A stretch of DNA of 45,681 bases. Source: a bacterium (lineage in GTDB: Bacteria > Bacillota_I > Bacilli_A > Acholeplasmatales > JAEDCM01). Where the stretch lies: the NCBI GenBank assembly GCA_024694145.1, contig JAILKD010000006.1:1-45681 (forward strand). Reading direction: 5' to 3'. Each line of letters opens with the position of its first letter. Position 1 is the first letter of the stretch. Positions 28,211-44,129 of this stretch are shown here, one piece after another. Below the pieces are notes generated by a model, which worked only from the letters and a program-made list of their open reading frames with translations, made no database searches and had not been told where the DNA came from. A program made the position numbers and the translations under genes.

Positions 28211-28744
28211 CTAGCATATTTCTATTTCTTCACTACTACTATTATTATTTGTGTTAATGTTTGAACTATTATCTTCATTTTTTGTTCCATATTTATCTTG
28301 TAGATATTTAAAATCAGAATATCCTGTAATAGTTTCATAACTACTTTCACTAAAATATTTTTCTAATTTTTCTGTTGCTTCATTAACTGCTAAAGTAATT
28401 TCTTCATTAGTTATTCCATCAGCAACTTTTCTATTATCTAAAACTATTGCTTTTTTAATTGCTAGTCTTACATAATCTGTTTTAGCTTCATCAAGTTTAC
28501 TAGCATTTTTAACCTTTTTTTCTAATCCTATATTTCTATCTAGTTTGTTATAATAAACAATTGCTTGATCAATTTTCTCTTCTGTTTCTATAGATAAACT
28601 AACTTCTCCTATATTATCTATAGACTTTTTTGTTCTATTAACTTTTATTACACTAGTTATAATTGATAAGCTTAAGAATAGAATTGCAAAACTAGTTAAA
28701 GCTATTATTAAAATTGTTCTATTACTTAATTTATTTGTTTTCAT
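28211..28744 (-). CDS. Small single-TM hypothetical protein ending in Cys
   Basis: N-terminal TM (TILIIALTSFAILFLSLSIITSVI), C-term SSSEEIEIC; inside operon. Confidence 0.6.
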   Translation of the reverse strand: MKTNKLSNRTILIIALTSFAILFLSLSIITSVIKVNRTKKSIDNIGEVSLSIETEEKIDQAIVYYNKLDRNIGLEKKVKNASKLDEAKTDYVRLAIKKAIVLDNRKVADGITNEEITLAVNEATEKLEKYFSESSYETITGYSDFKYLQDKYGTKNEDNSSNINTNNNSSSEEIEIC

Positions 28745-30333
28745 TTACTAACAGCCTTCTTTCTAGGGCTAAATGAGCATACTTGATCTTCATTTATTAA
28801 TGATTCTTCATTTTTCTTTTTCTTTATACTTACTGAGCAAACCTGATCTTCATTAATCAAGGAATCACTTATAGATTCTTTTTTCTTAGATATAGCACAT
28901 ACTTGGTCTTCATTAATTAAATCGTCATCTTTTTTATTTAACTTATCTAATTTGCTTAAATCAATATCAAATGGTTTATTAGCTTCTACCACAGTTTCTT
29001 TTTCATCTAGTACTACACTATTACCTACAATTATTCCAGCTGTTGCGGCTGTTGATACATTATCAACTGTTCTAATCATATCTGATATTGTATTTATCGG
29101 CATTAATAATATTACTGCAGCAACAGGTAAACCTAATACACTAAATAGTGATATTGATGATACAATTGCAATTCCAGGAACTCCTGCACTACCAAATGAT
29201 AATACTAAAGTTAATATTGCTAAAATAATATAGTCACCAACACCCCAGTTTAATCCAACTGCATTTACATAAAATATTGCAAGTAATATTGGCCATATAC
29301 ATGTACAACCTGGCATTCCTATAGTTGTTCCAAGTGGTGCAGTGAAGTTTGATACTTCTTCATCTACTCCAAGATCCTCCAAGTTTTTAATTGTTACAGG
29401 AAGTGTCCCAATACTTGATTGTGTTGTGAATGCTGTAGCTTGCGCAGGGAATATTGCCTTAAAGAACTTAAATAGGCTAATCTTAGCAAATAGTTTTACT
29501 AATAAGCCATTAGCAATAAATGTATGAACTAAAGCTACGATGTAGATTAATCCAACTAGAATTAATAATTGAATTATTGAATCCCCACTACTAAATATCT
29601 TACTTGTAGATACACTTATAATTGCTAAAACAGCATAAGGTGTAAGTTTAATAACAAAAGCTAACACTCTATAAATTATTCTTTTAGAAGCATTTATAAA
29701 GTCTTTAAATGATTCAACTTTATCTTCTCCACTTGACTTTGAAACACTTATATAACCTATAGCAAGTGCTATAGCTATAATAATTATTGCTACTACATTA
29801 TTATTTAGAATATCTCCTACAATATTTGATGGGAATAAATTAACTATTACATCTTCAAATGATTTAGTTAAGCCTGAATAAGCACTAACTGTACCGTCAG
29901 ATACACTATTTATATCACTAAATACGCTAGATGCACCTCTTCCTAGATGGAATACTGTTCCAGCTACAATTGATAAAACTATCGCAATACTTGCTGAAGT
30001 TAATAACCATACAACTGATTTAACTCCAATTTTTTTCATACTTCCTTTATTTTTTAAAGTAATGAAGCTTGAAATGATTGAAACAAGTATTACAGGTGCT
30101 ACAAGTGCTGTAATTATTCTTATATAAATATCTCCAATTAATCCAACCCATTTTAAATAACTATTACCTTCAGACTTAAATAGGAATCCTACTCCAACTC
30201 CAAGTGCTAAAGCAATAAGTATTACAAATGTGAAATTTATTTTCTTACTTAAGAAATGTAGTAAAACAAATAGTAAGAATACGATTGATAAAGCAAATAA
30301 GCTTATCCAATTAAAATCTAAGAAAGCATCCAT
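28741..30333 (-). CDS. DAACS (dicarboxylate/amino acid:cation) symporter, TcyP-like cystine transporter candidate, with repetitive Cys-containing C-terminal tail
   Basis: 'LVAPVILVSIISSFITLKNKGSMKKIG', 'FPAQATAFTTQSSIGTLPVTIKNL', 'PLGTTIGMPGCTCIWPI'; sulfur gene context. Confidence 0.85.
   Translation of the reverse strand: MDAFLDFNWISLFALSIVFLLFVLLHFLSKKINFTFVILIALALGVGVGFLFKSEGNSYLKWVGLIGDIYIRIITALVAPVILVSIISSFITLKNKGSMKKIGVKSVVWLLTSASIAIVLSIVAGTVFHLGRGASSVFSDINSVSDGTVSAYSGLTKSFEDVIVNLFPSNIVGDILNNNVVAIIIIAIALAIGYISVSKSSGEDKVESFKDFINASKRIIYRVLAFVIKLTPYAVLAIISVSTSKIFSSGDSIIQLLILVGLIYIVALVHTFIANGLLVKLFAKISLFKFFKAIFPAQATAFTTQSSIGTLPVTIKNLEDLGVDEEVSNFTAPLGTTIGMPGCTCIWPILLAIFYVNAVGLNWGVGDYIILAILTLVLSFGSAGVPGIAIVSSISLFSVLGLPVAAVILLMPINTISDMIRTVDNVSTAATAGIIVGNSVVLDEKETVVEANKPFDIDLSKLDKLNKKDDDLINEDQVCAISKKKESISDSLINEDQVCSVSIKKKKNEESLINEDQVCSFSPRKKAVSK
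28744..28935 (-). repeat. Three degenerate repeats encoding LINEDQVC(A/S)xSxxKK in the symporter tail
   Basis: LINEDQVCAISKKK / LINEDQVCSVSIKKK / LINEDQVCSFSPRKK. Confidence 0.9.
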
Positions 30334-30353: not shown

Positions 30354-30395
30354 TTAAATATGTTTTCTCCTACACATATAACAGTCAGAACTCAT
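30354..30395 (-). CDS. Micro-ORF MSSDCYMCRRKHI, directly upstream of the symporter
   Basis: RBS TAAGGAGATGGTTTT-ATG; stop about 20 nt before symporter start. Confidence 0.55.
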   Translation of the reverse strand: MSSDCYMCRRKHI

Positions 30396-30420
30396 AAAAC
30401 CATCTCCTTAAATACTTGCA

Positions 30421-30447
30421 AAATAAAAACAGGGTATCTCCCTGTTT
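30421..30447 (-). terminator. Leader-region intrinsic terminator (attenuator)
   Basis: Minus-strand AAACAGGGagataCCCTGTTTTTATTTTG, located between leader ORF and operon. Confidence 0.75.
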
Positions 30448-30464
30448 AATAGTTTAATTATTAA

Positions 30465-30569
30465 CTATTTTGCATTAGGGAGATTTAAGTGCATAATTAA
30501 ACACATGTGGCTACACATGCACATTGAACTATTCATTTTATGACTTTTACTAATTATTATTTTATTCAT
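30465..30569 (-). CDS. Cys/Met-rich leader peptide MNKIIISKSHKMNSSMCMCSHMCLIMHLNLPNAK
   Basis: RBS GTGGGAGG 9 nt before ATG; 3 Cys and 6 Met in 34 aa; ends just before attenuator. Confidence 0.6.
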   Translation of the reverse strand: MNKIIISKSHKMNSSMCMCSHMCLIMHLNLPNAK

Positions 30570-30602: not shown

Positions 30603-30637
30603 ATTGTACTCCTCTTTTCCTACTATGTCAATAGGAA
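30603..30637 (-). promoter_or_regulatory. Promoter TTGACA-N17-TACAAT with overlapping operator TTCCTA-N9-TAGGAA (30617-30637)
   Basis: Same operator architecture as metY promoter. Confidence 0.7.
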
Positions 30638-40063: not shown

Positions 40064-40498
40064 ATGATTTCAACTAAAGGAAGATATGCCTTACGACTAA
40101 TGATAGATATAGCTATATATGAAGAAAAAGGTTATGTTAGTTTAAAAGATTCTTCTAGTAGAGAAGATTTATCAATTAAATATTTAGAGCAAGTTGCATC
40201 TATTCTTACTAGAGCTGGTTTAATTTTAAGTTTTAGAGGAAACAATGGGGGATATAAATTATCTAGAAATCCTAAAGATTATAAAATAGGTGAAATCTTA
40301 AGGGCAGCTGAAGGATCGCTAGCTCCAGTTGCTTGCTTAGAATGTTCTAATAATTATTGTAATAGAAAAGATAAATGTACAACTATTGATTTTTGGGATG
40401 GTTTTAATAAAGTAATTAATGATTATGTTGATAATATTACTTTAGAGGATTTAGTAGATAAAGCTAAAGGTAAATTAACAAATGATTATAGCATTTAA
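40064..40498 (+). CDS. Rrf2-family transcriptional regulator with 4-Cys loop
   Basis: MISTKGRYALRLMIDIA, FRGNNGGYKLSRNP, ACLECSNNYCNRKDKC. Confidence 0.94.
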   Translation: MISTKGRYALRLMIDIAIYEEKGYVSLKDSSSREDLSIKYLEQVASILTRAGLILSFRGNNGGYKLSRNPKDYKIGEILRAAEGSLAPVACLECSNNYCNRKDKCTTIDFWDGFNKVINDYVDNITLEDLVDKAKGKLTNDYSI

Positions 40499-41624: not shown

Positions 41625-41704
41625 AATATCACCACTTACACTTATTATTATACTTATAAAAGTATAAAAGATAAAGGAAGAAAAATTATTTATTTTTTAC
41701 TCTT

Positions 41705-41769
41705 TTCCTATTGACTTACTAGGAATTAAGTAGTATCATATAGTTGTAATCCTACTAAACAAGTAGGAA
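41705..41769 (+). promoter_or_regulatory. metY promoter TTGACT-N17-TATCAT with two operators: TTCCTA-N9-TAGGAA (41705-41725) and ATCCTA-N9-TAGGAA (41749-41769)
   Basis: Direct reading; both share arms and spacing with the symporter operator. Confidence 0.7.
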
Positions 41770-41792
41770 ATGTAAGAAAAGAGGCGATGCTT

Positions 41793-41867
41793 ATGAGTAG
41801 CGATTGTTGTTGCGACATGCATATGTATAAGAAAAATATTTTAAAAAAGGAAAACAATCAAATTTAG
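41793..41867 (+). CDS. Cys-rich leader peptide MSSDCCCDMHMYKKNILKKENNQI
   Basis: GAGG RBS; three consecutive Cys codons; stop 24 nt before metY. Confidence 0.65.
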   Translation: MSSDCCCDMHMYKKNILKKENNQI

Positions 41868-41891
41868 AAAGAAAATTAGGAGGAATTTAAA

Positions 41892-43184
41892 ATGAGTAGA
41901 AATTATAAATTTGAAACATTACAATTACATGTAGGACAAGAAAAACCAGATTCAGCTACTGGAGCAAGAGCTGTACCAATTTATTTAACATCTTCTTATG
42001 TTTTTAACAATTCAAAGCATGCTGAAGATAGATTTGGTCTAAGAGATGCAGGTAACATCTATGGTAGACTAACAAACCCAACACAAGATGTATTTGAGCA
42101 AAGAGTTGCTGCACTTGAAGGTGGCGTTGGCGCACTAGCAACTGCAAGTGGAGCAAGTGCAATATATTATGCAATTATTGCTTTAGCTAAGGCTGGAGAC
42201 AATATTGTTGCCGCTAATAATATTTATGGTGGTACATATAATTTATTTGAACATACATTAAAAGATTTCAATATCAGCACTACTTTTGTTGATCCATCTG
42301 ATATAGAAAACTTTAGAAAAGCAATTAAAGATAATACTAAATTAGTATTTATTGAAACATTAGGTAACCCTAATAGCGATGTAATCGATATTGAAGCTAT
42401 TGCTAAGGTTGCACATGAAGCAAAAATCCCTCTAGTAGTGGATAATACATTTGCTTCTCCATACTTAGTTAGACCAATTGAATATGGTGCTGATGTAGTA
42501 GTTCACTCAGCTACAAAATTCATTATCGGTCATGGAACAGGACTTGGTGGAGTTATAGTAGATAGTGGTAAATTTGACTTTGAGGCTAGTGGTAAATTCC
42601 CTCATTTAGTAGAACCAAACCCAAGCTATCATGGTATTTCATTCACTAAAGCTGTTGGTCCATTAGCACTAGTAATTTATATTAGAGCTATTCTACTTCG
42701 TGATACAGGTGCTGCTATTTCACCAGTTAATGCATTTATTGCACTTCAAGGTTTAGAAACATTATCTTTAAGAGTTGAACGACACACTTCAAATGCTTTA
42801 AAGGTAGTTGAATACTTAAGCAAGAATAAGCATGTATTAAAAGTTAACCATCCAGCTGTAACTAAAGATTCTAAGCAAAAAGAATTATACAAAAAATATT
42901 ATCCAAATGGTGGAGGAACAATTTTCACATTTGAAATTGATGGTTCTGAAGAAAAGACTAAAGAATTTATTGATAATCTAGAATTATTTAGCTTATTAGC
43001 AAATGTTGCCGATGTTAAGTCTTTAGTAATTCATCCAGCTTCTACTACTCACTCACAATTAACTGATGAAGAGTTAGCAAGCGTTGGAATTTATAGAAAT
43101 ACTGTTAGAGTATCAATTGGTACTGAACATATTGATGATATTATTGAAGATTTAGAATTAGCATTTAGAAAAACATTTAACTAG
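41892..43184 (+). CDS. metY: O-acetylhomoserine sulfhydrylase
   Basis: FETLQLHVGQEKPDSATGARAVPIYLTSSYVF, VDNTFASPYLVRPIEYGADVVVHSATKFIIGHG. Confidence 0.95.
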   Translation: MSRNYKFETLQLHVGQEKPDSATGARAVPIYLTSSYVFNNSKHAEDRFGLRDAGNIYGRLTNPTQDVFEQRVAALEGGVGALATASGASAIYYAIIALAKAGDNIVAANNIYGGTYNLFEHTLKDFNISTTFVDPSDIENFRKAIKDNTKLVFIETLGNPNSDVIDIEAIAKVAHEAKIPLVVDNTFASPYLVRPIEYGADVVVHSATKFIIGHGTGLGGVIVDSGKFDFEASGKFPHLVEPNPSYHGISFTKAVGPLALVIYIRAILLRDTGAAISPVNAFIALQGLETLSLRVERHTSNALKVVEYLSKNKHVLKVNHPAVTKDSKQKELYKKYYPNGGGTIFTFEIDGSEEKTKEFIDNLELFSLLANVADVKSLVIHPASTTHSQLTDEELASVGIYRNTVRVSIGTEHIDDIIEDLELAFRKTFN

Positions 43185-43196
43185 GAGGGTAAATCT

Positions 43197-44129
43197 ATGA
43201 GTAAAGTATATAGTAATATTACAGAATTAGTAGGGAAAACACCTCTACTTGAATTAACTAATTATGAAAAGAATAATAACTTAGAAGCTAAGATTATTGC
43301 TAAGGTTGAATATTTCAACCCAGCAGGATCAGTTAAAGATAGAATTGCTAAAGCTATTATTGAAGATTATGAAGCTAAAGGATTACTAAAAAAAGGTTCT
43401 ACTATTATTGAACCAACTAGTGGTAATACTGGTATAGGACTTGCTGCAATTGCTGCAGCTAAAGGCTATAGATTAATTATCACACTTCCTGAAACAATGA
43501 GTGTTGAAAGACGTAACTTAATTAAAGCATATGGTGCTGAACTAGTTTTAACTGAAGGTGCTCTTGGTATGAAGGGTGCTATTGCTAAAGCTAATGAACT
43601 TCATGAACAAATTAAAGATTCTATTATTGCAGGACAATTCGTAAACCCAGCAAACCCTAAAGCACATTATGAAACTACAGGTCCAGAAATTTATAACGAT
43701 CTTGATGGTAAAGTAGATATCTTTGTAGCAGGTATTGGTACAGGTGGAACTGTAAGTGGTGTAGGTAAATTCTTAAAAGAAAAGAATCCTAATGTAAAAG
43801 TTGTTGGTGTTGAACCTAAAGGATCTCCAGTATTAACTGAAGGTCATCCAGGTCCACATAAAATTCAAGGAATTGGTGCTGGATTTGTTCCTGATACATT
43901 AGATACTAAGATTTATGATGAAATTATAGATGTTGAAAATGAAGATGCATTTAAAACAGGAAAAGACATTGCTAGAAACGATGGACTTCTTGTAGGTATA
44001 AGTGCTGGAGCTGCTGTATATGCAGCAACACTTCTTGCTAAGCGTCCTGAAAATAAAGGAAAGAATATTGTAGTAATCTTACCTGATACAGGTGATAGAT
44101 ACTTATCAACTCCATTATTCCAAGACTAA
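43197..44129 (+). CDS. cysK: Cysteine synthase A
   Basis: ELVGKTPLLELTNYE, FNPAGSVKDRIAKA, EPTSGNTGIGLA, GIGTGGTVSGVGKFLK. Confidence 0.96.
   Translation: MSKVYSNITELVGKTPLLELTNYEKNNNLEAKIIAKVEYFNPAGSVKDRIAKAIIEDYEAKGLLKKGSTIIEPTSGNTGIGLAAIAAAKGYRLIITLPETMSVERRNLIKAYGAELVLTEGALGMKGAIAKANELHEQIKDSIIAGQFVNPANPKAHYETTGPEIYNDLDGKVDIFVAGIGTGGTVSGVGKFLKEKNPNVKVVGVEPKGSPVLTEGHPGPHKIQGIGAGFVPDTLDTKIYDEIIDVENEDAFKTGKDIARNDGLLVGISAGAAVYAATLLAKRPENKGKNIVVILPDTGDRYLSTPLFQD

Follow-up and report, generated by a model that had tools for sequence, protein, structure and literature searches.

A candidate cysteine-sensing leader peptide upstream of metY-cysK in an Acholeplasmatales genome

The window analysed here is the whole of a 45,681-nucleotide stretch of contig JAILKD010000006.1 (assembly GCA_024694145.1; 84% complete, 3.3% contamination) from an Acholeplasmatales organism that groups with rumen MAGs. 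It contains a metY-cysK operon and, between the promoter and metY, a short open reading frame (ORF) rich in Cys codons. The features of this region are as follows:

41706-41725, + strand: palindromic operator TCCTATTGACTTACTAGGAA, overlapping the -35 element of the metY promoter
41711-41739, + strand: sigma-70-type promoter, TTGACT-17 nt-TATCAT (consensus scan, 10/12 matches)
41750-41769, + strand: second palindrome, TCCTACTAAACAAGTAGGAA, just 3' of the predicted transcription start
41780-41784, + strand: leader Shine-Dalgarno (SD) sequence AGAGG (GAGG at 41781-41784), 8 nt 5' of the ATG at 41793
41793-41867, + strand: leader peptide ORF MSSDCCCDMHMYKKNILKKENNQI, 24 codons, a conserved SD-led Cys ORF
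41878-41883, + strand: metY SD sequence AGGAGG, predicted accessible
41892-43184, + strand: metY, O-acetylhomoserine/O-acetylserine sulfhydrylase (TIGR01326, 615 bits against a cut-off of 495)
43197-44129, + strand: second gene of the operon, a cysteine synthase ORF assigned from the ORF and its sequence, which we take to be of the cysK type

The leader ORF carries three Cys codons in a row (TGT TGT TGC), and its stop codon is separated by 24 nt from the metY start codon at 41892. The first-pass annotation of the window had described just this arrangement, with the CCC run, the GAGG sequence and the position between promoter and metY, and the sequence agrees in every respect. It had also seen no intrinsic terminator ahead of metY, and a scan of 41625-41960 likewise returns zero terminator-like sites. 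Cys makes up 1.5% of residues in the window's proteins, and CCC is absent from all 28 of those checked. The leader peptides match no NCBIfam protein family when searched with the NCBIfam profiles. The second palindrome may serve as another operator or as a hairpin at the 5' end of the transcript, where it is predicted to fold with 7 bp; across the order its form is preserved at almost every metY locus.

An ortholog of metY is present in 24 of 161 genomes of the order, which yield 23 distinct upstream regions. When these regions are compared, as the first-pass annotation had proposed, each of the 23 contains an SD-led short ORF with Cys codons whose end falls in the interval from 72 nt upstream to 4 nt downstream of the metY start. 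For ATG-started, SD-led ORFs, with leader starts assigned by rule, at least one Cys codon is found in 23/23 regions, at least two in 22/23 and at least three in 11/23. The corresponding means over 200 dinucleotide shuffles are 2.3, 0.39 and 0.04 regions, with maxima of 9 for at least one Cys codon and 3 for at least two. The wider background consists of fetched loci and pattern searches; at gene starts in the fetched loci of the same order, every upstream ORF with at least three Cys codons stands before metY or another sulfur-related operon. Because the loci are related, the 23 regions do not count as independent events. Judged on these sequence comparisons, the order-wide conservation of the leader is not chance.

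Comparison within the genus indicates which property is conserved. Over the first 13 leader codons, locus L002 differs from the window at three positions, all synonymous, and it retains CCC. The leader of L003, MSSDCSDMCDMC, has CSDMCDMC instead, and its stop codon overlaps the metY start as ATGA. The CCC run is thus lost from a close relative, an outcome that the first-pass annotation had named as evidence against a leader; since the count of three Cys codons is kept, what is conserved seems to be the Cys codons and not the back-to-back run, which had been taken as a hallmark. What the ORFs share is Cys codons early in the frame, accompanied by Met; some leaders of the order have few Cys codons, with a single one in L156.

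In the window's genus, peptides beginning MSSDC precede three sulfur operons, and a pattern search of the genus finds true MSSDC starts at leaders only (two in genome G000, three in G001 and one in G002). The same five residues are encoded differently from operon to operon, as ATG AGT AGC GAY TGT, ATG AGT TCT GAC TGT or ATG TCA TCA GAC TGT. This variation in the Ser codons (AGT AGC, AGT TCT, TCA TCA) suggests selection at the level of the translated peptide.

A second operon in the window shares both the operator and the Cys leaders of metY. Its features, together with a regulator gene, are:

28741-30333, - strand: dicarboxylate/amino-acid:cation symporter family gene (family-level matches, below equivalog cut-offs)
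30354-30395, - strand: sister leader 2, MSSDCYMCRRKHI, adjoining the symporter gene
30464-30569, - strand: sister leader 1, MNKIIISKSHKMNSSMCMCSHMCLIMHLNLPNAK, with an intrinsic terminator 3' of it and a possible antiterminator
30617-30636, - strand: symporter-operon copy of the operator, TCCTATTGACATAGTAGGAA
40064-40498, + strand: Rrf2-family regulator with Cys cluster CLECSNNYCNRKDKC (TIGR00738, above cut-off)

Searched without mismatches, TCCTATTGACNNNNTAGGAA occurs in G000 in two copies only, 5' of metY and of the symporter, and the operator palindrome also lies 5' of leader operons in relatives. The operator is probably bound by an Rrf2-type (CymR/IscR-like) repressor, for which the product of 40064-40498 is a candidate. 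This protein falls below the cut-offs of the IscR and CymR equivalogs (CymR NF047409, 102 bits against 195), and the only profile that it matches above cut-off is that of the Rrf2 superfamily. Its profile scores lie between those of IscR and CymR, it has an extra Cys cluster, and its gene is near the metY operon with an oppositely oriented gene between them.

The terminator 3' of sister leader 1 had been reported earlier and is present; its 5' arm, AGGGAGAU, is complementary to AUCUCCCU within the leader. The tandem Cys leaders at 30354-30569 amount to two control steps in series before the symporter. The substrate of this transporter is perhaps cystine or cysteine, a guess from its regulation. 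Its C-terminal tail contains three near-identical (S/D)LINEDQVC(A/S)(I/V/F)S repeats with one Cys each. Related arrangements occur in other genomes. Genome G001 has the operator and leader MSSDCCMCIKENRLNETKNNKRIIKKKEGI before a substrate-binding-protein gene, with the leader stop 2 nt from the gene. Locus L140 (G057:C1, reverse strand, about 1510-1730), as read from the sequence, carries a GST-like gene preceded by leader MSNKIIIANVNFNKMMCSCMCISYHTVFSGFHNS and a terminator-like hairpin; relatives of this gene sit 5' of a transporter gene of the substrate-binding/ABC kind. The symporter of G131 has leader MKKMMCCINNKINEVCRMQ plus a terminator-like hairpin, and that of G135 retains the operator with the leader absent. 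Cys leaders are thus found again at operons of three kinds (symporter, ABC-transporter and GST-like), in some cases with an intrinsic terminator.

Across the order, the metY leaders take two main forms. Type A leaders, found in the window's genus and some others, have many Asp and Cys residues close to the N-terminus; type B leaders carry R-C-M, often R-M-C, plus S-H-N-V-M-C blocks, and the leader of L157 is a mixture of the two. The spacing between conserved blocks is a multiple of three in 11 of 12 type B leaders, which also speaks for constraint on coding. At these 12 loci, the start region of the leader pairs with the SHNVMC segment (-15 to -21 kcal/mol), a helix first suggested by RNAalifold. 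The duplex energy is at or near the minimum of 300 shuffles in 11 of 12; the exception is L007 (p=0.11), where the SHNVMC segment is read in a different frame and both the pairing and a Cys codon persist. In an 11-sequence set, 94.8% of cells in the helix are paired, against 20-62% when the alignment is slid, and there are three two-sided pair changes, where 12 of 500 shuffles have at least as many; one of the three is an A-U to G-C change at the GTG start codon of L006. Support for the helix is good and not conclusive, since the set is small, related and chosen after the helix had been seen. A corresponding start/antistart helix in the window's genus does not rise above shuffles (p=0.57 for L001, 0.92 for L002 and 0.34 for L003), and the helix is therefore a feature of relatives only. 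In type B leaders (e.g. L153) the rare Arg codon CGA is conserved directly 5' of Cys/Met codons; CGA accounts for 1.1% of Arg codons in the window, for 6% in the metY genes of Clostridia and for none of 64 in a sample of g2 metY genes.

Similar motifs are found at clostridial metY genes. The named collection includes 78 metY loci whose upstream sequence is long enough for the comparison. An SD-led ORF bearing an RMC/RCM-type motif occurs at 20 of them, nearly always encoded CGA ATG TGY; at two of the 20 (L073 and L108) it lies a long way upstream and could be a chance occurrence, and L033 comes from an Acholeplasmatales genome. The pattern CGNATGTGY is expected about once in an equal amount of sequence. 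Pairing with the leader SD involves the motif itself in L042, L051 and L088 (p 0.003-0.017); in the Ruminococcus loci a segment beside the motif can pair with this SD, with mixed support (p 0.03-0.68). RMC-stop or RMCRC-stop closes the leaders of L059, L099 and L100, and some of these leaders contain just one Cys codon, which is odd if codons are simply counted. A wider reading, which we regard as doubtful, would join all of these into a Firmicutes-wide family of self-closing sulfur-sensing leader ORFs. In such a family a segment late in the leader, coinciding with its Met-Cys codons or adjoining them (often CGA-ATG-TGY or CGA-TGT-ATG), would pair with the leader's own SD or start, and the position of the ribosome on the Cys codons would decide whether the leader is open to re-initiation. 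The downstream gene would then be controlled without a terminator, Rho or SD masking, and the window's genus would have a reduced, helix-less form.

Judged from computational evidence throughout, the ORF at 41793-41867 is likely a cis-acting cysteine-sensing leader peptide of metY-cysK, whatever its output step. The first-pass annotation had made the same proposal, which now draws good support from the conserved Cys codons and from sister leaders of the same sulfur regulon that are linked to terminators. Together with the order-wide Cys ORFs and the recurrence of MSSDC, these make cysteine supply the most likely quantity that the leader reports. The best explanation of the arrangement is that the leader forms a second control layer below the Rrf2-type operator.

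The output at metY is approached by exclusion, since this site has no terminator, a metY SD predicted to be open and no T-box, and eight genomes searched for Rho give no match above its cut-off. Neither T-box RF00230 nor any other Rfam element or riboswitch is found at metY in loci L001-L007, and T-boxes are present elsewhere in the genome. Most leaders of the order leave 19-72 nt between their stop and metY and show no obvious output structure. If sensing is granted, our tentative first choice is that a stalled ribosome protects the mRNA against RNase J. A fall in charged tRNA-Cys would stall the ribosome about 60 nt into the transcript, on codons 5-7; the stalled ribosome, behind the 5' hairpin, would block 5'-to-3' decay by RNase J and stabilise the metY-cysK mRNA. 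With ample Cys, the ribosome would move on and the mRNA would decay normally. This direction of control is taken from what would make physiological sense. Protection is ranked first because the genome has two RNase J-type genes, because RNase J follows ribosomes and leaves 5'P footprints that, in Lactobacillus plantarum, mark slow ribosomes at Cys codons (PMC10234816), and because stalling on erm leaders has been tied to mRNA stabilisation (PMC9178857), an effect that has itself met with doubt (PMC5118997).

Ranked second, and somewhat unlikely even where sensing is granted, is translational occlusion or coupling, the latter named among the outputs in the first-pass annotation. Ribosomes that have translated the whole leader would terminate at the metY ribosome-binding site or shortly ahead of it and there impede or supply initiation, and stalling at the early Cys codons would alter this traffic. 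The stop-to-start distance is at most 35 nt in 6/6 MSSDC leaders, the L003 leader overlaps metY, and the L145 leader stops 2 nt from an ABC-transporter gene, all as such occlusion or coupling would predict. Elsewhere in the order, however, leader stop and metY are 19-72 nt apart, in most cases more than a ribosome footprint, and metY has a strong SD of its own; taken together with the shared sensor, this account is unlikely.

Two further readings dispense with the sensing of tRNA-Cys shortage, and both are improbable. The ORF might encode a working small Cys-rich protein that binds thiols or metal and is no regulator. The MSSDC N-terminus is indeed preserved at the protein level across operons and clusters such as CGCDCC resemble metal sites, but leader length, tail and Cys positions differ widely across the order, type B leaders pair with their own start and the sister leaders lie in attenuator-like regions. 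Alternatively, the nascent peptide itself, through R-M-C, R-C-M or D-C motifs, might arrest the ribosome upon sensing a sulfur metabolite. The recurrence of RMC/RCM with the rare CGA codon and the single-Cys clostridial leaders ending in RMC-stop would fit arrest; the window's peptide, however, has no RMC, and CGA is equally explained by a constraint at the codon or RNA level.

Two other outputs had been offered by the first-pass annotation and fare worse. Structural translational attenuation, in which the same sensor would keep the metY SD masked until a stalled ribosome occupies the leader, has been reported for cysteine leaders of mycobacteria and is quite improbable here. It has some footing in genus g28 (L032, L154), where a post-leader UCCUUC can pair with either the metY SD or the leader GAAGGA and the SD has an unpaired probability of 0.04-0.34, but in the window's genus an accessibility calculation gives 0.81-0.97 whichever ribosome state is modelled. 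Termination by Rho under the control of leader translation is very unlikely: it would suit a site with no intrinsic terminator and has been proposed for mycobacterial cys operons (PMC1262725), but Rho (TIGR00767) exceeds its cut-off in none of eight genomes (completeness is 91% or better in five, and 84% in the window's own), with ATPase cross-hits only, and the spacer is A-rich, not C-rich.

This kind of leader is already known from Mycobacterium, and the metY leader would be a variant form. The mycobacterial polycysteine sORFs are likewise Cys-rich short ORFs before sulfur genes and are reported to act by cysteine-responsive attenuation (Canestrari 2020, doi 10.1111/mmi.14498, as cited in PMC9094748 and PMC13236596). 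Those are leaderless, whereas the window's ORF is SD-led, has a predicted 5' UTR, carries its Cys codons near the start, lacks predicted SD masking, belongs to a distant phylum and has a palindromic operator upstream. Cys leader peptides without an obvious terminator have also been described before cys operons of Mycobacterium and some other Actinobacteria, with the mode of action left open (Seliverstov 2005, PMC1262725). These cys/cbs leaders resemble the one at metY in both respects, but their Cys runs lie near the stop and their genomes have Rho; here the Cys codons come early and a search of eight genomes yielded no Rho. The sister leaders of the symporter and GST operons pair Cys codons with a terminator as trp-type attenuators do, whereas the metY leader has none. 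The cysteine T-boxes of Clostridia (PMC2940859) also sense tRNA-Cys charging at cysteine genes; none is present at metY, which has a translated ORF instead. The proposed stall-and-protect output resembles that of erm-type leaders, with amino-acid shortage in place of an antibiotic. A literature search covering few subscription journals returned no description of Cys leaders for Acholeplasmatales or for Lachnospiraceae/Ruminococcus.

If the proposal is true, cysteine-responsive leaders extend from Actinobacteria to Acholeplasmatales and to gut and rumen Clostridia, and leader control would operate without detectable Rho, at a site with neither a terminator nor an SD mask. The natural variants differ in the output element that they carry. 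How terminator-less Cys leaders act, the question raised in PMC1262725, could then be tested on short sequences with clear limits.
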